Position numbers and translations under genes: made by a program
DNA from: a virus
Strand: one strand, 5' to 3'
DNA: 53,262 bases
Virus record (IMG/VR): IMGVR_UViG_3300048582_000146
Location: 1-53,262 of that record
Part shown: piece by piece, positions 7,526-33,298 of the stretch
How the letters are laid out: each line of letters opens with the position of its first letter
Position numbering within the stretch: the stretch's first letter is position 1
Notes under the pieces: model-generated
What the model saw: the letters and a program-made list of their open reading frames with translations, nothing else
Told to the model about the DNA's origin: nothing
The model's database searches: none

Positions 7526-7789
7526 CTATAAAACCTCAGCTAGTTTAAGGCTGTTGGCGGTATTGAAAACCTTATCATCAAACCCAAAAATCCAATTGGC
7601 ATTGACATCATATTTTGTGCAAATGGCTTGAATTTGCATTACCGTAAAATGTGTTTGACCTTTTTTTATTTTGGTAATCGTTTGTGGCTGCATATCAATT
7701 TCAAGACAAAAGTCACGGATATAGGAGATCTTATTTTGAAAAATCAAAAGCTCGATAAGTCTTATTATTCTTTTGTCGGTTGAATGCAT
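7526..7789 (-). CDS. XRE/HTH-type regulator
   Basis: This 87-residue protein has a helix-turn-helix of XRE type: FCLEIDMQPQTITKIKKGQTHFTVMQI, followed by QAICTKYDVNANWIFGF, a signature common in phage repressors and Cro-like proteins. It is the last gene of the leftward repressor operon and abuts the lipoprotein gene with no gap. It could be an excisionase control factor, a second repressor or an antitoxin-like regulator; the target cannot be read from the sequence. Confidence 0.7.
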   Translation of the reverse strand: MHSTDKRIIRLIELLIFQNKISYIRDFCLEIDMQPQTITKIKKGQTHFTVMQIQAICTKYDVNANWIFGFDDKVFNTANSLKLAEVL

Positions 7790-8206
7790 TTAATTAAGTT
7801 TAAACATGTTTATAAAAACCGAATCCTTATTACAAACCACCAAATATTGCTCTTTAATTAAAGCGTTAAACTCATTTGTATTCCTACAGTTAAAGGACAT
7901 TATAATATCATCATCAGAAATATAATAATCTTCCAAGTATTGTTTTTTAAGTCCTTCAAAATACAACTCCCTTTCCGGATTCATGTTTGATGGATTATTT
8001 TTTAAATGATAAAAAATTGAAACATTGGAATCTTTAAAAATATTTTCACCAATGGATATAAACTCATATCCTGATGGGTCGTTGACATTCCGTTTTATTT
8101 GACATTCCGCATTTTCTTTAATTAGGTCAATTTTCTTTATATCATTAGATTTTTCGCACGACATAAACAATATTGCAATCAAGATATATAATTGAAATTT
8201 TTTCAT
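7790..8206 (-). CDS. Lipoprotein encoded in the lysogeny operon
   Basis: This 138-residue protein starts with a short signal peptide, MKKFQLYILIAILFMSC, with a lipobox F-M-S-C at residues 14-17. The mature part is small and acidic with several Asp-Asp and Asn clusters (YISDDDIIM). It lies between the repressor and the XRE regulator with spacers of one base or none, so it is expected to be expressed in lysogens. Known prophage lipoproteins in this position often change the host surface or block superinfection, but no homologue is recognised here, so this is inference from context. Confidence 0.6.
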   Translation of the reverse strand: MKKFQLYILIAILFMSCEKSNDIKKIDLIKENAECQIKRNVNDPSGYEFISIGENIFKDSNVSIFYHLKNNPSNMNPERELYFEGLKKQYLEDYYISDDDIIMSFNCRNTNEFNALIKEQYLVVCNKDSVFINMFKLN

Positions 8207-8207
8207 C

Positions 8208-8831
8208 TTACATCGTTGTTTTTGTTATTACTCCTTTTATAATAAAGAACCTCTTTAGTAGTGATAAGTGAAATTCTTTTGCTTCATACTTTGGATTTTC
8301 AGAAGCCAAAAGCCAATGATCGTCGTCTTTTCCTTTTCTTATGTATTTTAAAAAGACTTGGCCATCATTCAAAATAATCACATAAGCATATCCAAAATTT
8401 ATATAGCAGGGCTCAACTTCTTTTATTCCTATTATTTCACCACTGCAATACTTCGGATACATGCTGTCTCCGTAAACATTAATAAATTCGACACCTTTCT
8501 CCCAGTTAGGAATACTTATAGCGATTCTTCTTAGTTCATCATTTTGAAGCTCCATTTCTAAACCGGCACTTGCCGAAACATCCGGATAGTAATAACCGGT
8601 AGGATCTTCATTCACAAAATCAACAGTACTTTCTTTTAATACATAACTTTTTGTTTTGTAATTTGTAATGTAATTTTCAAGTATCTCTAAAGTTTTTTCT
8701 CTTGGGTTTTTAGAGGTTCCATTGATTATTTTGTTTATTCCAACCTCAGTTAATTCAGTGTCTTTTGCTATCTCATAGGCCGTTAATCCTAGAGATTTAA
8801 TGTCTTTTACTATTTTTATCGCTCTCATCAT
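8208..8831 (-). CDS. CI/LexA-like phage repressor with S24 peptidase domain
   Basis: This repressor has about 207 residues. The N-terminal helix-turn-helix (LTAYEIAKDTELTEVGINKIINGTS) binds operators, and the C-terminal S24 domain contains the nucleophile motif YGDSMYP and the Lys in VFLKYIR that together allow self-cleavage in response to host DNA damage. I chose an ATG at 8829-8831 because the annotated alternative at 8855 would add eight residues (MILNYIWE) outside the domain; that longer start cannot be excluded. It is divergent from the early operon, and two palindromic operators lie in the intergenic region. It is the likely master switch of lysogeny. Confidence 0.85.
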   Translation of the reverse strand: MMRAIKIVKDIKSLGLTAYEIAKDTELTEVGINKIINGTSKNPREKTLEILENYITNYKTKSYVLKESTVDFVNEDPTGYYYPDVSASAGLEMELQNDELRRIAISIPNWEKGVEFINVYGDSMYPKYCSGEIIGIKEVEPCYINFGYAYVIILNDGQVFLKYIRKGKDDDHWLLASENPKYEAKEFHLSLLKRFFIIKGVITKTTM

Positions 8832-8862
8832 TTCCCATATATAATTTAAAATCATTTTAAAT

Positions 8863-8879
8863 TACATAATTATTATGTA
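8863..8879. promoter_or_regulatory. Repressor operator O1
   Basis: Arms TACATAAT (8863-8870) and ATTATGTA (8872-8879) form a perfect palindrome around one T. The half-site TACATAA is shared with O2, 31 bp away centre to centre, which is three helical turns. It lies 32 bp upstream of the repressor start and is probably where the S24 repressor limits its own transcription. Confidence 0.75.
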
Positions 8880-8886
8880 TTATGTT

Positions 8887-8916
8887 TTGTAGATACATAA
8901 CAGTTATGTATATTTG
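8887..8916 (+). promoter_or_regulatory. Rightward early promoter (Bacteroidota type)
   Basis: The -7 box TATATTTG (8909-8916) matches TAnnTTTG, and a -33 TTG lies at 8887-8889 with 19 bp between, the usual Bacteroidota spacing. The expected start of transcription is near 8922. It reads into the structured leader and the early operon, and operator O2 sits between its two boxes. Confidence 0.75.
8893..8911. promoter_or_regulatory. Repressor operator O2
   Basis: Arms ATACATAAC (8893-8901) and GTTATGTAT (8903-8911) form a perfect palindrome around one A. The site occupies the spacer between the -33 and -7 boxes of the rightward early promoter and overlaps the first bases of its -7 box, so a bound repressor would block RNA polymerase. 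Confidence 0.8.
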
Positions 8917-8921
8917 TCCTG

Positions 8922-9344
8922 TACAAAAAGCAAGAAGCAAAAGTATACTAAAAATTTATTGAAATTACGCGATTCTGTCAATTTAGAATCATTATAAATA
9001 AAATTTTAGAGTTGTAAGTTATTTGAAATCATGAGATTAACTGATGAGTATAGTCTGAATAACGGGCAGGGCAATGCGATAGATCACTACGTGTAGTGAT
9101 TCAATAGGTGGAACTCCTTTTGCGTAACTTAAAATGTGGAACGATACGGTATACGTAAGGTTGGTCTATAGCCACAATGGGCTGAATAATACATGTTGAT
9201 AATTACAATACCAAATATTAAGGCTATGGGTTTAACAACCTTTCTGCGAAAGCCTGAAAGATAAAATTAAAAACGCCATTGGATTAAGTTCTATGCTTCG
9301 ATGAAACAATGGCACTATTGTAAAACCTTTTAACCTAACTAAAA
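8922..9344 (+). ncRNA. Long structured 5' leader of the early operon, no clear gene
   Basis: These 420 bases have no convincing protein gene. They hold several stems: GATTCT/AGAATC (8971-8990), ATCACTAC/GTAGTGAT (9083-9100, perfect 8-bp arms), a long-range helix of AAGGTTG (9157-9163) with CAACCTT (9236-9242) plus CTATAGCC (9166-9173) with GGCTATGG (9222-9229), and GCCATTG/CAATGGC (9275-9313). A 21-codon frame starts at 9031 (MRLTDEYSLNNGQG) and stops inside the 9083-9100 hairpin, as a leader peptide might. A 3' regulatory leader, an independent RNA or an anti-terminator RNA are all possible. Confidence 0.5.
8980..9000. promoter_or_regulatory. Degenerate third copy of the late-promoter palindrome
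   Basis: Aligned to the palindrome at 34934-34954, this site matches 18 of 21 positions; the right arm reads ATTATAAATA in place of ATTCTAAATA and the first base differs. No good TAnnTTTG box follows at the same distance. It may be a weak binding site for the late regulator inside the early leader, or chance similarity in AT-rich DNA. Confidence 0.35.
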
Positions 9345-9581
9345 ATGATAGCAATTGATAAAAACATACCAATCCCTTCACGAGTAAGAAATAGGGTTTA
9401 TCCGCTTAACAAGATGGAAGTAGGTGATAGCTTCTTTAAAGAGATTGACGAAAACAAAAGTAAGCACTACGAAAAACAAAAAATTTATATGGCGGTTTGG
9501 AGGCACTGCCAAAACCATAGTAATAAAAAATTTACAACCGCATCTGAGGAAAATGGAGTAAGAGTTTGGAGAATTCAATAA
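9345..9581 (+). CDS. Small phage protein, DUF7303-like
   Basis: This 78-residue protein has the pattern YPLNKMEVGDSFF near residue 24 and KFTTASEENGVRVWRI at the C-terminus. The combination M-x-V-G-D-S-F with a final F-T-x-x and G-V-R-V-W-R recurs in a family of small early phage proteins of unknown function. It is the first gene of the early operon after the long leader. No catalytic residues are evident; a nucleic-acid-binding role would be a guess. Confidence 0.65.
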   Translation: MIAIDKNIPIPSRVRNRVYPLNKMEVGDSFFKEIDENKSKHYEKQKIYMAVWRHCQNHSNKKFTTASEENGVRVWRIQ

Positions 9582-9598
9582 TTAATAAATCAATAAAA

Positions 9599-9766
9599 AT
9601 GAAAAATATATTCAAATCAATTTCAATGTTTTTAGAAAACAGCGAATTACAGAATTTAATTAATCCCGCCAATAATGACTTTTACGATCATAAGGTAGGA
9701 ACAAGTTTGCTTAGTAAGGAACAATTCATTTCTCACATGAGAAGAAAAAATATAATCTGTTTATAA
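9599..9766 (+). CDS. Hypothetical early protein
   Basis: This 55-residue protein begins MKNIFKSISMFLENSE and ends in a basic stretch (MRRKNIICL). I use the ATG at 9599, 17 bp after the previous stop, instead of an upstream TTG that overlaps the preceding gene. No family is recognised. It lies in an early operon of small proteins just before a helix-turn-helix protein. Confidence 0.5.
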   Translation: MKNIFKSISMFLENSELQNLINPANNDFYDHKVGTSLLSKEQFISHMRRKNIICL

Positions 9767-9780
9767 AACCAATCACAATC

Positions 9781-10002
9781 ATGGCACTACAAATAAGAGA
9801 TGATATTTATCATTTAATCAGAAACGATGTAAAGCTTAGAATTAAAATGGCAGCTCATTTAGAAGTGAGTGATGCTACCATCTATTTACACGCTAAAAGA
9901 AAGGCTCCAAAGTTAAACGACTACAATTTGGTTAAAATACTAATGGATCATACCGGGAAATCAGAGGAAGAAATATTTGAAACTCAAAACTCAACCACAT
10001 GA
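9781..10002 (+). CDS. Small helix-turn-helix protein, possible Cro-like regulator
   Basis: This 73-residue protein contains LRIKMAAHLEVSDATIYLHAKRK, a helix-turn-helix with the recognition helix SDATIYLHAKR, followed by a short dimerisation-like tail. It is the third gene of the early operon opposite the S24 repressor, the classic position of Cro. It could repress the repressor promoter or act on middle promoters. Its stop overlaps the next small ORF by four bases. Confidence 0.6.
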   Translation: MALQIRDDIYHLIRNDVKLRIKMAAHLEVSDATIYLHAKRKAPKLNDYNLVKILMDHTGKSEEEIFETQNSTT

Positions 10003-10115
10003 ACATCTACGAGAGATTAATAATTGCTTTTGCGATTTTATTAGTTGGATTGGCAATTGTAAATGTGTGCTATTGGATTGGCAAACAAATAAACAAATTT
10101 GACGATGAAGACTAA
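9999..10115 (+). CDS. Tiny single-span membrane protein (38 aa)
   Basis: The 38-residue reading frame starts at ATG 9999 overlapping the stop of the regulator gene (ATGA) and ends inside the start of the next gene. It has a charged N-terminus, one hydrophobic span (LIIAFAILLVGLAIVNVCYWI) and a Lys/Asp-rich C-terminus. Overlap on both sides suggests real translation. No family is recognised; similar tiny spans occur at 10308 and 10704. Confidence 0.5.
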   Translation: MNIYERLIIAFAILLVGLAIVNVCYWIGKQINKFDDED

Positions 10116-10311
10116 TCAGATCATTATATCAGAGGAAGACATAAATGTTTTGCAGGAACATTTGAAGCCGCTTAATCAGTTACTGAATAAGCTAAAAAAA
10201 GGGGCGGTTTCGGCCGCTCCTTCTATTAAAAAGCCTGAAACAAAAAAGCAGGGTATCAACAGAATGTTACAGAAAATAGAAGAAAATCAATCTAAAAAAC
10301 TCTCCAGATGA
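10105..10311 (+). CDS. Hypothetical coiled-coil early protein
   Basis: This 68-residue protein starts MKTNQIIISEEDINVLQEHLKP with an amphipathic helix, then LNQLLNKLKKG, a Pro/Lys linker and a second helix ending in KKLSR. I use the ATG at 10105; an upstream TTG at 10099 is less likely. It overlaps the tiny membrane ORFs on both sides. Positive charge and helices fit a DNA-associated or scaffold role but nothing specific can be named. Confidence 0.5.
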   Translation: MKTNQIIISEEDINVLQEHLKPLNQLLNKLKKGAVSAAPSIKKPETKKQGINRMLQKIEENQSKKLSR

Positions 10312-10415
10312 AAAAATTAACCGAAGACAATTTTTTATTCATAATCGCAATATGCTGCATTATTATGATGCTAGTGGCTTTAGGCTTATCCTTTAGCGTG
10401 GTTATGGACAAATAA
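10308..10415 (+). CDS. Tiny single-span membrane protein (35 aa)
   Basis: The 35-residue frame starts at ATG 10308, overlapping the TGA of the previous gene. After KKLTEDN it has one span, FLFIIAICCIIMMLVALGL, and ends VVMDK. It ends one base before the terminator stem at 10417. The overlap and the position between real genes support translation; function is unknown. Confidence 0.5.
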   Translation: MKKLTEDNFLFIIAICCIIMMLVALGLSFSVVMDK

Positions 10416-10416
10416 A

Positions 10417-10446
10417 AAAACCGGCTCTACACCGGTTTTCATTTTT
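10417..10446 (+). terminator. Intrinsic terminator in early operon
   Basis: AAAACCGG (10417-10424) pairs with CCGGTTTT (10432-10439) around a 7-nt loop and is followed by CATTTTT. The early operon goes on 38 bp later, so this probably gives partial termination or is overcome by an anti-terminator. Confidence 0.7.
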
Positions 10447-10484
10447 AAATTCTAACAGCCGAGCAAGGCATAAAACTTAAAGTG

Positions 10485-10700
10485 ATGGCAAAGATACAAA
10501 TTTTACAGAAATTAGTAAACACTAAAATTAATAACGACAAATCCAAACAAATCATTGGTAACATCGTCAGAAAAGAATTTGACCAAACCAAAGATGAGGA
10601 CAGAGCGTTCGAACTACTTACCATTGCCTTTCAATGGAAACTTCCCCAATTCAACGAAATGATTGATGACTATAAGTTTGAAGACTTTAAATGGGTTTAA
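10485..10700 (+). CDS. Hypothetical protein
   Basis: This 71-residue protein is mixed-charge and likely helical (VRKEFDQTKDEDRAFELLTIAFQW), ending in an acidic-aromatic stretch FKFEDFKWV-like. The ATG at 10485 is preferred to a GTG three bases upstream. It follows the terminator at 10417. No family is recognised. Confidence 0.5.
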   Translation: MAKIQILQKLVNTKINNDKSKQIIGNIVRKEFDQTKDEDRAFELLTIAFQWKLPQFNEMIDDYKFEDFKWV

Positions 10701-10703
10701 CTT

Positions 10704-10802
10704 ATGAAAGCAATCATCACACTTATCATTGTCGGTATTGTTATCGGCATTATCGTAACCATCTTATTCTTCTGGTGGGCAGTCAAACAAAACAATAAAT
10801 AA
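10704..10802 (+). CDS. Tiny single-span membrane protein (32 aa)
   Basis: The frame starts at ATG 10704, 3 bp after the previous stop, and encodes 32 residues: a short start, the span IITLIIVGIVIGIIVTILFFWW and a Lys/Asn tail. It stands 20 bp before the SMC-like gene. It is the third such tiny membrane peptide in 800 bp; none has a recognised family. Confidence 0.5.
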   Translation: MKAIITLIIVGIVIGIIVTILFFWWAVKQNNK

Positions 10803-10822
10803 ATTCTAAAAATAGAGCAAAA

Positions 10823-12841
10823 ATGAAAAATATCATTATTAAAAAAATCGGCCTTATCAACTTCAAAGGCTTACGAAATCAGGAAATAAACTTCGATAAG
10901 ACAACTAGTATCTTCGGAGACAACGGAACCGGAAAAACAACAATCTTCGACGCGTTTACTTGGTTGATGTTTGGCAAAGATTCAACCGACCGGAAAGACT
11001 TTGAGATTAAAACACTCGACAAACACAACATTGTTATTCCTCAAATCGAACATGAGGTATCTGCAATCATCTTGGTTGAAGGAGAGGAGATAAGCATCCG
11101 AAGAATTTTAAAAGAGAATTGGGTTAAAAAGCGTGGTTCTTTAGAATCTGAATTCTCCGGAAATGTAACGGACTACTATTGGAATGAGGTTCCAATGCAG
11201 CAAAAGGAATTTCAAACCAAAGTAAGTCAGATTCTTGACGAAACGGTTTTCAAGATGATTACCAATCCTCTTGCGTTCAATGCGATGAAATGGCAAGACC
11301 GAAGAAATGCTTTAATTCAAATTGCCGGTGAAATTTCAGAAATCGAATTGGCAGCCGGAAACTCGGAATATGAAAAACTTTTGGAGCAATTGACACAAGG
11401 CAAAACCCTTGAAGATTATCGCAAACAAATAGCAGCTTCCATCAAAAAAGCTAAAGAAGATTTGAAAGCGATTCCCACTAGAATTGATGAAGTATCTCGT
11501 TCAAGACCGGAAGAGCACGATTTCAAAGGTTTAAAGACAGAATTAGATTCAAAGGTAATTACCCTCGAAAAATTAGATGCTGAAATTGCAGATGCAAACA
11601 CTGCCTTCCAATCAAAATTGGACGCCGTAAGAGCCGAAAAAATCAAAGTCAACAACTTGTCTTCGGAAATAGAAACAATCGAACACAACGCACGAAAAGA
11701 AGCTACATCTAACGGCAAACCGGATACCGAAGCATTTGAGAAATCAAAACGCCTTTATGAAGAAAAGAAAGCAGAATTAAACGGTTATGAAGGTTCGCTT
11801 CGAACTTTGGTAAGCAATCGAGATTCTTTGAAAACTCAAATCACTTCGGTAAAGTCTAAAATGGACGCCAAAAGAAATGAGTGGACAGAAGTAAATGCAA
11901 AGACTTTTGTTTTTGATGATTCCAACTGTTCATGTCCTACTTGTAAAAGAAGTTATCCGGAGGGCGATATCGAGGCAACCAAATCGGATTTAAAGAAAAA
12001 CTTTGAAGAAGATAAAAAGGCTAAACTTTTACTAATCAATCAAGCCGGTGCAAGTTTAAAAGCAGAATTAGAAAGTACGGAAGCCGAACTAAAAGCACTA
12101 GAAGAAAGAATTGCCAAAGGTGAAACCTACATCACCAACGCAAAGACAGAGCTTGAAAAACTAAAATCCGATTTTGATTATCAAACTGAGCAATTAAATA
12201 AAGTTGAAACTTCTGCTACAGATATTGAAGCTTTGGTTGCATCAATATTGAAAAACAATCAGGTTTACCAAGAAAAGCTAATCATGCTTGAAGGTTTAAA
12301 ATCTTCGCTTCAGGAAGTTCCATCGGTTGATAACTCGGAGTTGGTTGAGAAAAGAAAGTCTTTAGTTGCTGAAATCGATACAATCAAAGCAAAGCTTCAA
12401 AATGAAGTGCAAATCAATTCTGTAAATCAAAGGATTGAAGATTTGAAAAAAGAAGAAAGCACTTTGGCTCAACAAATTGCCAACGTTGAAAAAACGCAGT
12501 TTGTGATTGAAAACTTCAACAAATTGAAAATCGACACTTTAGAGGAACGCATCAATGCCAAATTCAAATTCGTAAAATTCAAAATGTTTCAAACGCAAAT
12601 CAACGGCGGTGAAATTGAATGTTGTGATGCTTTGATTGACGGAGTTCCTTTTTCGGATGCAAACACGGCTTCAAAAATTAATGCCGGGTTAGACATCATC
12701 AACACGCTTTGCGAATTCTATCAAGTGACAGCTCCAATCTTTATTGATAACAGAGAAAGCATTGTGCAACTGATCAACACCGAAAGTCAGGTTGTAAACT
12801 TGATTGTGAGCGAAGTTGATAAGAAATTGAGAGTAGCGTAA
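10823..12841 (+). CDS. SMC/Rad50/SbcC-like ATPase
   Basis: This 672-residue ATPase has the Walker A motif GDNGTGKT (32-39) in an N-terminal AAA head, two long coiled coils, and a zinc hook CPTC near residue 370 that would join two molecules. The C-terminal head contains APIFIDNRES, which corresponds to Walker B, and INAGLDII as the signature region. The arrangement matches Rad50/SbcC and phage gp46-type proteins that process DNA ends with a nuclease partner. The metallo-beta-lactamase-fold hydrolase downstream could be that partner (inference). It is the first large gene of the recombination module and is followed at once by a 58-residue protein. Confidence 0.85.
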   Translation: MKNIIIKKIGLINFKGLRNQEINFDKTTSIFGDNGTGKTTIFDAFTWLMFGKDSTDRKDFEIKTLDKHNIVIPQIEHEVSAIILVEGEEISIRRILKENWVKKRGSLESEFSGNVTDYYWNEVPMQQKEFQTKVSQILDETVFKMITNPLAFNAMKWQDRRNALIQIAGEISEIELAAGNSEYEKLLEQLTQGKTLEDYRKQIAASIKKAKEDLKAIPTRIDEVSRSRPEEHDFKGLKTELDSKVITLEKLDAEIADANTAFQSKLDAVRAEKIKVNNLSSEIETIEHNARKEATSNGKPDTEAFEKSKRLYEEKKAELNGYEGSLRTLVSNRDSLKTQITSVKSKMDAKRNEWTEVNAKTFVFDDSNCSCPTCKRSYPEGDIEATKSDLKKNFEEDKKAKLLLINQAGASLKAELESTEAELKALEERIAKGETYITNAKTELEKLKSDFDYQTEQLNKVETSATDIEALVASILKNNQVYQEKLIMLEGLKSSLQEVPSVDNSELVEKRKSLVAEIDTIKAKLQNEVQINSVNQRIEDLKKEESTLAQQIANVEKTQFVIENFNKLKIDTLEERINAKFKFVKFKMFQTQINGGEIECCDALIDGVPFSDANTASKINAGLDIINTLCEFYQVTAPIFIDNRESIVQLINTESQVVNLIVSEVDKKLRVA

Positions 12842-30143: not shown

Positions 30144-30605
30144 ATGGCCGGCAGTAGATCAAGTATTTTGGAAACAGAACGACGCGTGTTCACTATACAA
30201 GGGTGGATTATTACCGGCGTGCCTGACTATTTGATTCTGAAAAACATCGAGCAACAGTTTGGCGTTTGCCGTAGACAGTCAAAAAACCTACTAAAAAGAG
30301 CCTACACAATTTGGGTTCAGGACCAGGAGGCAACCATTGAACAGAAGCGAGCTTTAAAGATTGCCAAACTCAAGCAAGAGATTCGCTCAATGGGTGAGGA
30401 GTACAAATTTACTCCTAAAGGCATGGCTGTGAAGTTGGCTTATGAAAAGGAAATAAACAAGCTTGAAGGCATTTACCACGCTAAGCAAATGGTTCTCAAA
30501 GGCGATAAAGAAAACCCTGTTGTGGTTACCGACGACTTCACTCCGGAGAAGGAAGCACGACTAAACAAACTCATTGAAAAGGTTTTACAGTTCAAAAAAG
30601 AATAA
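30144..30605 (+). CDS. Terminase small subunit-like protein
   Basis: This 153-residue protein has an N-terminal helix-turn-helix region (VFTIQGWIITGVPDYLILKNIEQQFGVCRRQSKNLLKRA) and a charged C-terminal helix (FTPEKEARLNKLIEKVLQF). The layout matches small terminases that recognise phage DNA. It is separated from the large subunit by about 1.2 kb, including a non-coding block, which is unusual. The exact family cannot be fixed by eye. Confidence 0.65.
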   Translation: MAGSRSSILETERRVFTIQGWIITGVPDYLILKNIEQQFGVCRRQSKNLLKRAYTIWVQDQEATIEQKRALKIAKLKQEIRSMGEEYKFTPKGMAVKLAYEKEINKLEGIYHAKQMVLKGDKENPVVVTDDFTPEKEARLNKLIEKVLQFKKE

Positions 30606-30620
30606 TTTTTTTGTACTTTC

Positions 30621-30663
30621 AATAACATAAACTACTATTTAATAATAAAATATGTTATTTTTG
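30621..30663 (+). promoter_or_regulatory. Promoter related to the 15.9-kb promoter
   Basis: The -7 box TATTTTTG (30656-30663) is preceded by AATAACATA (30621-30629) and TATGTTATT (30651-30659), which are reverse complements. The stretch CTACTA...TATGTTATTTTTG is alike at 15903-15930 and 30633-30663. The start would be near 30669, only about 20 bp before the terminator at 30691. Confidence 0.55.
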
Positions 30664-30690
30664 AACTATGAATTCAATCCAATATACTAA

Positions 30691-30721
30691 AAGCCTCTTA
30701 TGTGAGCGAGAGGCTTTTTTT
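30691..30721 (+). terminator. Intrinsic terminator after the small terminase
   Basis: AAGCCTCT (30691-30698) pairs with AGAGGCTT (30709-30716) with a 10-nt loop, followed by TTTTTTT. It closes the transcript from 29.9 kb, and would also limit any transcript from the promoter at 30656 to about 50 nt. Confidence 0.85.
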
Positions 30722-31203
30722 AAACAGAACAACCCAGAGAATTCTCCGAACGCACGAATACGTACGATTGTGTTTCTAATTGCAAGTAGATAGGAGATAG
30801 AGAAGCGAAAAACATAGCCAGAGGAGTTTCCTGATGATCGGTTTTAGATTCTGGCAAATTGGGGAAGTAGCTCAGAGGTTAGAGCAATTCAATAAACCTA
30901 GGCCTTCGATCGGGGTGCTTCGTATAGAAGGGGTTTATTTTCATAAGTCGTTGGTTCGAATCCAACCTTCTCCACAAAACAACTCATTCCGATAAGACGG
31001 AACATGGAACCTTTCGGGCGGTTGAATGGCTCGTCATATCATTCCGTGATACATGGATTATAGGTCTGGCATGTAGACAATTTGAGTCGTGTGGCGTTAG
31101 GATGTTTTTAGGGTTTTTCAGGTTTTCCTTTTTCGTCTTCCAAAGAACACCTTATAAAAAATCAAATGTGAGTTGTTTTTTTAACCATTTAAAATCTAAT
31201 CAA
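30722..31203 (+). other. Non-coding block between terminase genes
   Basis: No convincing protein gene is seen in these 480 bases; frames begin in the middle with hydrophobic nonsense. It holds a stem GCCAGA/TCTGGC (30817-30855) with inner AGGA/TCCT, the tRNA-like RNA (30861-30974), and several small hairpins (TTCCG/CGGAA near 30987-31002; GTCT/AGAC near 31063-31077). The rest is unexplained. The downstream gene starts at 31204. Confidence 0.6.
30861..30974 (+). tRNA. tRNA-like RNA with extended hairpin replacing the anticodon arm
   Basis: GGGGAAG (30861-30867) pairs with CTTCTCC (30967-30973) as an acceptor stem, one G-U. The D arm is GCTC AGAGGTTA GAGC (30870-30885), and the T arm GTTGG TTCGAAT CCAAC (30950-30966) is perfect. 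Base 30974 is A. The normal 17-nt anticodon arm is absent: between them lie 64 nt, in which AATAAACC (30891-30898) and CCTTC (30903-30907) pair with GAAGG and GGTTTATT (30927-30939) to form a 13-bp hairpin with a TAGG bulge and a 19-nt loop. No CCA is encoded. It probably cannot decode. Confidence 0.55.
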
Positions 31204-31822: not shown

Positions 31823-33298
31823 TTGCTAACAGAAGCTGAAATACTAGAACTTGAAACTCTTCTGAAAGAAAGAGAAATTGATATTAAACGTAAGCGATTA
31901 AAGACTATCGGTGAAGATACGAATCCAAACTACCAGCTTCTTTTTAATGCCATCAATGAGCAAAAGTATAATGAATTAGGCGAGTTAATTTCAGGGTGGC
32001 GTGGTTGTGCATTGGAGGGTTCCTCTCGTTCCGGCAAAACGTGGTCCGGTGTTGATATAATCGTATGGCTTGCTCTTTATTATGAGCCAAACGGATGTAC
32101 AATAAACATTTACCGGCAAACCTACAACGAATTTAAAACAACGCTTTATGATGATTTCAAACGCCGGCTTGATGATTATGGATTGCCAAATCCTTTTCAT
32201 ACAGCCAAAGAAATAAAAAGCTTCAAGATAGGCAAAACAACCATTTACTTTCTTGGTGATGGAAAACATGGTGGAGGTTGTGACTATGCTTTCTTTAATG
32301 AAATGATGTTCATTGAGCAGCATGTATTTGACCAAACAGAAATGCGTTGCCGTAAGTTTTGGTGGGCAGATTACAACCCATCAGTTACCGAGCACTGGTT
32401 CTTTGATAGAGTTTTGTCACGTCCTGATGTTGGGTTTTTGAAAACAGTATACCAGGATAACAAATACATTTCCGTTCAGGAGAAAAACAAAATACTTTCC
32501 TACGAACCATGGAAGCCCGGTTCATACATCGTCAAAGAAAGTGAATTGCTTTGTTACAATAAGCAAACCGGCAAGATTGAATTAGTAAGCAAAACCAATC
32601 AACCGCCACCTCATCCATCAAATATTGAGAATGGAACTGCCGATGAGTTCATGTGGAAGGTTTACGGTCTTGGATTGCGTGGTGCCATGAAAGGAGTGAT
32701 ATTCAATCACGTTACTTGGATTGATGAGTTTCCGGACATTGCCTACATTTTTACTAATGACTTTGGATTTACAACAGATCCAAACTCTTTTAATAAATAT
32801 GCTGAAGATGAACACAACATTTGGATTGAGCCTCTATGCTATGAACCAATTGAGACATCTGAAGAACTGATTGGTGTGATGGATGCTCATTCAGTAAAAA
32901 GAAATTCAGATGATTTTAATCTTGATGGTGATTTGGTTATTTGCGACAGCTCCGATAAGTACACCGGAGAAAACAAAGGAACGGTGGAAATGGTAAGAGC
33001 TTTGAAAAAAGCACTATTCAACGCTTCAAAGGTCAGTAAAACTAAATCGGTGATGTTCTGGTTGAACTCAATGAAGTCTAAAAAGATTCACATTGTAAAA
33101 AATCATCTATACAACCAGGTTAAAAAGGAAAAAGAAAACTACAGAATGCGAGAAATAAACGGCATAGCAATCAATCAACCAATTGATTTGTTTAACCACT
33201 TCTGGGATTCTTCAAGATATGGCCACATGGCTTATAATTCGCAAAACAGAGTACACAGAACAGAACAATCACTCCCTGAATTGGGCATAAACTATTAG
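31823..33298 (+). CDS. terL: Terminase large subunit (TerL)
   Basis: This 491-residue protein is the packaging motor. Walker A is GSSRSGKT (66-73), Walker B is YAFFNEMM (155-162), and the nuclease domain has DFGFTTDP and ICDSSDKY with a final Asp-rich region (DLFNHFWDSSRY). The ATP-binding and nuclease halves are full length. No in-frame ATG exists upstream; the frame is open from a TTG at 31823, so translation probably starts there. Portal follows 5 bp later. Confidence 0.9.
   Translation: MLTEAEILELETLLKEREIDIKRKRLKTIGEDTNPNYQLLFNAINEQKYNELGELISGWRGCALEGSSRSGKTWSGVDIIVWLALYYEPNGCTINIYRQTYNEFKTTLYDDFKRRLDDYGLPNPFHTAKEIKSFKIGKTTIYFLGDGKHGGGCDYAFFNEMMFIEQHVFDQTEMRCRKFWWADYNPSVTEHWFFDRVLSRPDVGFLKTVYQDNKYISVQEKNKILSYEPWKPGSYIVKESELLCYNKQTGKIELVSKTNQPPPHPSNIENGTADEFMWKVYGLGLRGAMKGVIFNHVTWIDEFPDIAYIFTNDFGFTTDPNSFNKYAEDEHNIWIEPLCYEPIETSEELIGVMDAHSVKRNSDDFNLDGDLVICDSSDKYTGENKGTVEMVRALKKALFNASKVSKTKSVMFWLNSMKSKKIHIVKNHLYNQVKKEKENYRMREINGIAINQPIDLFNHFWDSSRYGHMAYNSQNRVHRTEQSLPELGINY

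Follow-up and report, generated by a model that had tools for sequence, protein, structure and literature searches.

Phage tRNAs are usually seen as codon supplements or as substitutes for tRNAs that defence systems cut. The alanine identity of a tRNA is signaled for charging by its G3:U70 pair and A73, and the anticodon plays no part in recognition by AlaRS. Nor do LeuRS and SerRS, the textbook cases, rely on the anticodon to recognize their tRNAs (PMC7373986). A phage tRNA-Tyr counters the tRNA-cleaving defence Septu/retron-Eco7 (PMC13096335). Phage T4 encodes species 1 RNA (rnaC), the role of which is unknown (PMC3014915); it is a late RNA that has been detected by Northern blot (PMC9697503). 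We found no description of a class of non-decoding phage tRNA mimics in the open-licence literature.

The window analyzed here is the whole 53,262-nt stretch of IMG/VR record IMGVR_UViG_3300048582_000146. The record represents a 53-kb virus that encodes an integrase and a CI-like repressor and is therefore probably temperate. Its large terminase gene (terL, 31823-33298), which is followed by the portal protein gene, is preceded in order by a terminator-like hairpin, a tRNA-like RNA, a second structured RNA (X-RNA), and two small ORFs. The features are as follows.

30690-30722, plus strand: terminator-like hairpin GCCTC..GAGGC followed by T7, upstream of the tRNA-like RNA (from sequence; loop too long for the terminator scan used)
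30861-30974, plus strand: tRNA-like RNA, Ala-type body with the anticodon arm replaced (complete RF00005 match, 49 bits; ARAGORN negative)
30861-30867, plus strand: 5' acceptor strand GGGGAAG, its G3 pairing with U70 (sequence)
30870-30885, plus strand: D arm GCTC-AGAGGTTA-GAGC (sequence and RF00005 alignment)
30887-30944, plus strand: 58-nt replacement of the anticodon arm (comparison of inserts among members)
30891-30898, plus strand: outer hairpin strand AATAAACC, pairing with 30932-30939
30903-30907, plus strand: inner strand CCTTC, pairing with GAAGG at 30927-30931 in the MFE fold
30918-30921 and 30927-30930, plus strand: competing hairpin CTTC/GAAG, the version common to the window and relative L058
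30932-30939, plus strand: outer hairpin strand GGTTTATT, pairing with 30891-30898
30945-30949, plus strand: variable loop AAGTC (RF00005 alignment)
30950-30966, plus strand: T arm GTTGG-TTCGAAT-CCAAC (sequence and RF00005 alignment)
30967-30974, plus strand: 3' acceptor strand CTTCTCC and discriminator A73 (sequence)
30979-31101, plus strand: X-RNA, a separate structured RNA with a pseudoknot, directly 3' of the tRNA-like RNA (covariation)

An earlier note, made from the sequence without database searches, had proposed a tRNA-like RNA with complete acceptor, D, and T arms and a TTCGAAT T loop. This was borne out by the Rfam tRNA model RF00005, which matched exactly 30861-30974 at 49 bits (gathering threshold, 29; E = 1.6e-7 in the window), with model positions 1 to 71 fully covered and 54 nt left unaligned at the anticodon arm. 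It was the sole tRNA-like match to the model in the whole record, and an ad hoc body scanner detected an equal-scoring body in 0 of 60 shuffled windows, both strands included. The claim that no normal anticodon arm can be drawn also held: the 64-nt filler between D stem and T arm (30886-30949, in the place of a normal anticodon arm and variable loop) has no canonical 5-bp/7-nt arm with U33 and an anticodon, and ARAGORN returned 0 tRNAs and 0 tmRNAs in the window. Both alanine identity signals, G3:U70 and A73, are present, the former being the single G-U pair in the acceptor GGGGAAG/CTTCTCC. CAA stands directly 3' of A73, so that CCA is incompletely encoded.

The outer hairpin strands and the CCTTC/GAAGG pairing proposed for the insert are present in the sequence and form in the MFE fold. 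Taken alone, the insert has a stability that is ordinary for its base composition (82 of 500 shuffled versions were as stable), and support for the hairpin is therefore comparative. The homologous 8-bp stem in relatives L054 and L058 (AAAACAAA/TTTGTTTT versus AAUAAACC/GGUUUAUU in the window) keeps all pairs, and four of the eight outer-stem pairs, read from the sequences, are changed on both sides between the window and L058. The L058 hairpin CTTTC-GTATT-GAAAG is the homologue of CTTC-GTATA-GAAG in the window, so that the CCTTC/GAAGG pairing may compete with this conserved one. Stability was dropped as proof of structure, inserts being on average no better than shuffles (mean z, -0.34). The longest complement of the window insert in its own genome, sought as a sign of an antisense role, is 11 nt, which is also the length most often met in shuffles.

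A TerL scan returned 80 related loci, 64 of which had enough sequence upstream of terL. Most relatives' sequences are metagenomic contigs; their records were searched with the Rfam tRNA model and the body scanner. tRNA-like RNAs of 70 to 165 nt were found in 27 of the 64 loci, 0.6 to 3.7 kb upstream of terL, and 24 loci had neither a tRNA nor a tRNA-like RNA. Ordinary tRNAs at the same site were mostly Met, Tyr, and Trp, along with Leu and Ala. The tRNA-like RNAs of this set were Ala-type, in a few cases Leu-type, and of no other type. Pattern scans built on CTTCTCCA yielded further copies and are biased to the body type of the window, a bias from which the TerL-based set is free; three prophage-like copies could be given a named host, which was a Flavobacterium strain for two of them. 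A rigid body-plus-body pattern gave 0 matches in viral contigs. The pattern of the tRNA-like RNA occurred in 2 of 397 host-family genomes, which indicates that it is phage-borne and ruled it out as a host chromosomal feature.

The site is one of cassette exchange. Two relatives, L019 and L020, have flanks that are 95% identical on both sides, yet one carries an Ala-type tRNA-like RNA and the other a Leu-type one (GGCTAAG..CTTAGCCA) plus tRNA-Tyr; it is this swap within near-identical flanks that shows the exchange. In L002, with a TerL 95% identical, an HNH endonuclease gene stands in place of the tRNA-like RNA, and L028 has an apparently decayed copy. The earlier note had reasoned that related phages with a normal tRNA and no insert here would count against a mimic. 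None was seen: no TerL relative has a normal tRNA-Ala on this body, and these loci instead hold other inserts, other tRNAs, or the HNH gene. The note had also called the place uncommon, which did not hold within this group of phages: a tRNA/noncoding RNA cassette site lies at the same spot across related phages. Its description of a 600-bp noncoding block between terminase subunits stood in part. The block (30606-31203) and terL are as described; no small terminase was found upstream, where the ORF at 30144-30605 had no PHROG or Pfam match and no similarity to a relative's annotated small terminase, and two small ORFs intervene before terL. Judged from its sequence, the window element is a conserved tRNA-Ala body without an anticodon arm, phage-borne and located at a hotspot, and the stretch that stands in for the arm is exchangeable.

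Phage tRNA-Met genes with an unpaired, initiator-like 1:72 were seen in several relatives, among them L019:2428-2500 and L020:3838-3910. L155:2328-2409 combines the same Ala-type body with a D-loop hairpin (GCGAAAGC) and carries an arm readable as anticodon UUU; if charged with alanine, this RNA would misread Lys codons. A second T-arm-like hairpin (GGTTCGAGTCC) lies within the inserts of L077:4205-4327 and L156:13549-13667.

Among 23 long-armed Ala-type members (253 pairs), body identity was 86% and arm-region identity 52%, compared with 50% for shuffled arms. Each of the 37 distinct Ala-type sequences that are 86 nt or longer has G3:U70; A73 is missing from one of them, L009. Pairs 1:72, 4:69, and 7:66 and the entire T stem vary among Ala-type members, mostly with compensation (for example, G-C to A-U at 4:69 in L074 and at 7:66 in L079). 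The conserved signals and the restriction to Ala and Leu types fit selection for a body that would still be chargeable. A single origin of the Ala-type members is probable, however, so that conservation of G3:U70 partly reflects descent.

The anticodon is lost by three routes: expansion of the arm region to 30 to 76 nt, as in the window; truncation of the arm to 8 to 15 nt, several such members (L004, L006, and L027) having a structured D-loop insert, the stem of which covaries in L027/L054; and absence of the arm. The last gives a 58-nt RNA, its D and T stems 8 nt apart, that five genomes of Polaribacter phage Danklef share unchanged; in the cultured phage Danklef_1 (L175:1474-1531) this armless tRNA-Ala body is annotated as tRNA-OTHER. 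What the family has in common is the predicted loss of decoding, not any given arm, and the proposal of a tRNA mimic is thereby supported, the phage family conserving the body and losing the anticodon.

These forms bear on two other explanations. An intron-containing tRNA from which the insert is spliced out is barely credible, even though one Aeromonas phage member is annotated as a two-piece tRNA-Leu and some members (L009 and L019) have a 5-bp stem beside the body. Splicing cannot apply to the truncated and armless members; members lack a consistent U33 or anticodon; and inserts run about 45 to 60 nt beyond a normal arm, far under group I size. In the window, the insert ends ATTCA/TTCAT pair at three of five positions by eye, giving no 5+5 stem, and exon ends forming a normal arm after splicing were not found. 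A decaying tRNA pseudogene with random insertions would account for inserts that look random in sequence and stability and for the apparently decayed L028. We nevertheless find it very doubtful: dozens of sequences preserve the acceptor, D, and T arms in full, with compensatory changes, the anticodon arm alone is lost, the body stems hold up better than the insert, and in the near-isogenic pair one copy has been swapped for another intact one.

The X-RNA has 24 proposed pairs, including a pseudoknot, with 91% of cells paired (32 to 45% in slid controls) and 20 pairs changed on both sides, versus 12.3 in shuffles. It had no Rfam match at E ≤ 1. Roughly one in two TerL loci has a member of this family, and because each RNA is found without the other, the X-RNA and the tRNA-like RNA are separate elements. 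We speculate that the X-RNA may act in cis as a leader for the late operon. Its presence in 1 of 397 genomes ruled it out as a host chromosomal feature. Self-cleaving HDV/theta ribozymes adjoin phage tRNAs (PMC10879173), and the helix order of the X-RNA is like P1/P2/P3; this identity was rejected for now, since there is no Rfam HDV match, an extra helix crosses, and no conserved catalytic C is evident.

The position of the tRNA-like RNA after the terminator-like hairpin and upstream of the X-RNA, small ORFs, terL, and portal gene, where relatives have normal tRNAs, could mean that a tRNA fold heading the late operon guides RNase P/Z to a cut that frees the downstream RNA and the late mRNA. 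Such a role as processing punctuation or leader element is distinctly improbable. It leaves unexplained the conservation of G3:U70 and A73 amid compensation elsewhere, the multiple copies, and the arrays described below, and more than a third of the TerL loci (24 of 64) have neither kind of RNA.

Similar RNAs form a wider class. L096 and L117 have about eight Leu-bodied tRNA-like RNAs with one body and differing inserts, set among ordinary tRNAs. We also noted Leu-bodied arrays with near-identical bodies (AGTCAGG..CCTGACTA) and many normal tRNAs between them in L096 (about 7688-12210), L117, L165, and L157. In Aeromonas phages that span several genera, and in one phage of 735 kb, the insert (a covarying hairpin plus UUACAGCAA) is conserved and the body varies. 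Members of this family include L180:1679-1795, L174:1501-1619, and L186 to L192, and the same insert module occurs in a second, Gln-like body at L180:1546-1659 and L187:468-580. These mimics mostly lack G3:U70/A73, and aminoacylation is thus not class-wide. These RNAs show that selection can act on either part, body or insert, depending on the lineage. In Klebsiella phage KP13-26 (L185:950-1450) there is a run of circularly permuted tRNA bodies with UACAGCAA modules, YrlA-like at 40 bits, which is below gathering; the module also resembles Dictyostelium Class I RNA, circularly permuted (E = 0.02 and 0.048), which may be chance.

Kinship of the window RNA with tmRNA or the bacterial Y RNA YrlA is highly improbable. 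tmRNA likewise has a tRNA-like domain that is charged with alanine and has something else in place of its anticodon arm, L152 gave a weak tmRNA score (23.1 bits), and the Klebsiella phage locus joins an Aeromonas-type module to a YrlA-like score. The window, however, has no ARAGORN tmRNA and no Rfam tmRNA or YrlA match at E ≤ 1, and its 114 nt leave no room for a tag and pseudoknots. It has a D stem and no circular permutation, and no Ro60/TROVE protein was found. The tag reading frame, pseudoknots, and model match of a tmRNA were thus not found, nor were the permuted module, model match, and Ro60 partner of YrlA, and both identities were rejected.

A stronger alternative is that the tRNA body serves as a scaffold for an RNA effector, the body providing processing and stability and the insert being the working part, with a protein or RNA of host or phage as its binding partner; laboratory tRNA-scaffold constructs use a tRNA body this way. 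The Aeromonas phage insert, kept while its body changes and shared with a Gln-like body, leaves room for this reading, and together with inserts that covary within subfamilies (L041/L079/L098/L152, L107/L153, and window/L058) it favors it; the L096 array, with one Leu body and about eight inserts, fits as well. Flavobacterium-group inserts, in contrast, have random-level similarity, can be absent, and are on average no stabler than shuffles, and that of the window has no antisense match in its own genome. We regard an effector scaffold as rather unlikely for the window.

We tentatively favor, at somewhat less than even confidence, a non-decoding and probably alanine-accepting tRNA mimic, built on a tRNA-Ala body with an exchangeable arm and likely serving as a decoy. 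Host RNase P, 3' processing, and CCA addition would handle it as a tRNA-Ala, and AlaRS, blind to the anticodon, would charge it with alanine, giving a stable RNA unable to decode. In the least certain step, this RNA would be a decoy or sponge, its target some host factor that works on the body or the acceptor end of tRNAs, such as a tRNA-targeting defence nuclease or toxin or the translation machinery; the arm would be free to vary or would tune the target. Random-like inserts and armless members favor a decoy, which we place somewhat ahead of an effector scaffold for the family of the window. Against a decoy, the apparent compensatory changes and shared motifs in some inserts exceed the needs of a freely drifting arm. 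A family of look-alikes with differing middles at the same spot suggests a virus-host function beyond ordinary decoding.

It is possible, and we hold this more loosely, that phages of very different hosts have an undescribed class of RNAs in which a tRNA body matures, and is often aminoacylated, via the host and carries an exchangeable RNA domain for the anticodon arm, kept in cassette sites or arrays as a repertoire of decoys or inhibitors; T4 RNA C may belong to it. A recurrent class that keeps charging signals and drops decoding would mean that phages put the tRNA body to another use. It would account for some "tRNA-OTHER/Undet" entries in phage genomes and may frame T4 RNA C comparatively. 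The expanded, truncated, and armless forms and the near-isogenic L019/L020 pair make these ideas directly testable.

Among known RNAs, phage tRNA-Ala TGC (L099, L127, and L144; acceptor GGGGAAG/CTTCTCCA) has the same acceptor with G3:U70, A73, and D and T arms, whereas the window RNA has 58 nt for the anticodon arm and cannot decode. T4 rnaC (L181:1909-2047, 139 nt), from the tRNA region of T4, is likewise a small stable phage RNA; it finishes with a canonical T arm (CCGGG-TTCGAAT-CCCGG) beside a 7-bp acceptor made imperfect by two U-U mismatches. It has no recognized D arm, a degenerate acceptor, and no RF00005 match, and the comparison is one of likeness. The tRNA-like domain of tmRNA shares a G3:U70 alanine acceptor and a non-anticodon arm in that place; the window RNA, at 114 nt, has a normal D stem and no mRNA part or pseudoknots. 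YrlA, which also mimics a tRNA without decoding and has D-like and T-like arms, is circularly permuted and has a Ro60-binding stem, whereas the window has no YrlA match or Ro60 gene. Anti-defence phage tRNAs, by contrast, are full, decoding tRNAs, but they share with the window RNA exchangeable cassette sites near homing endonucleases.
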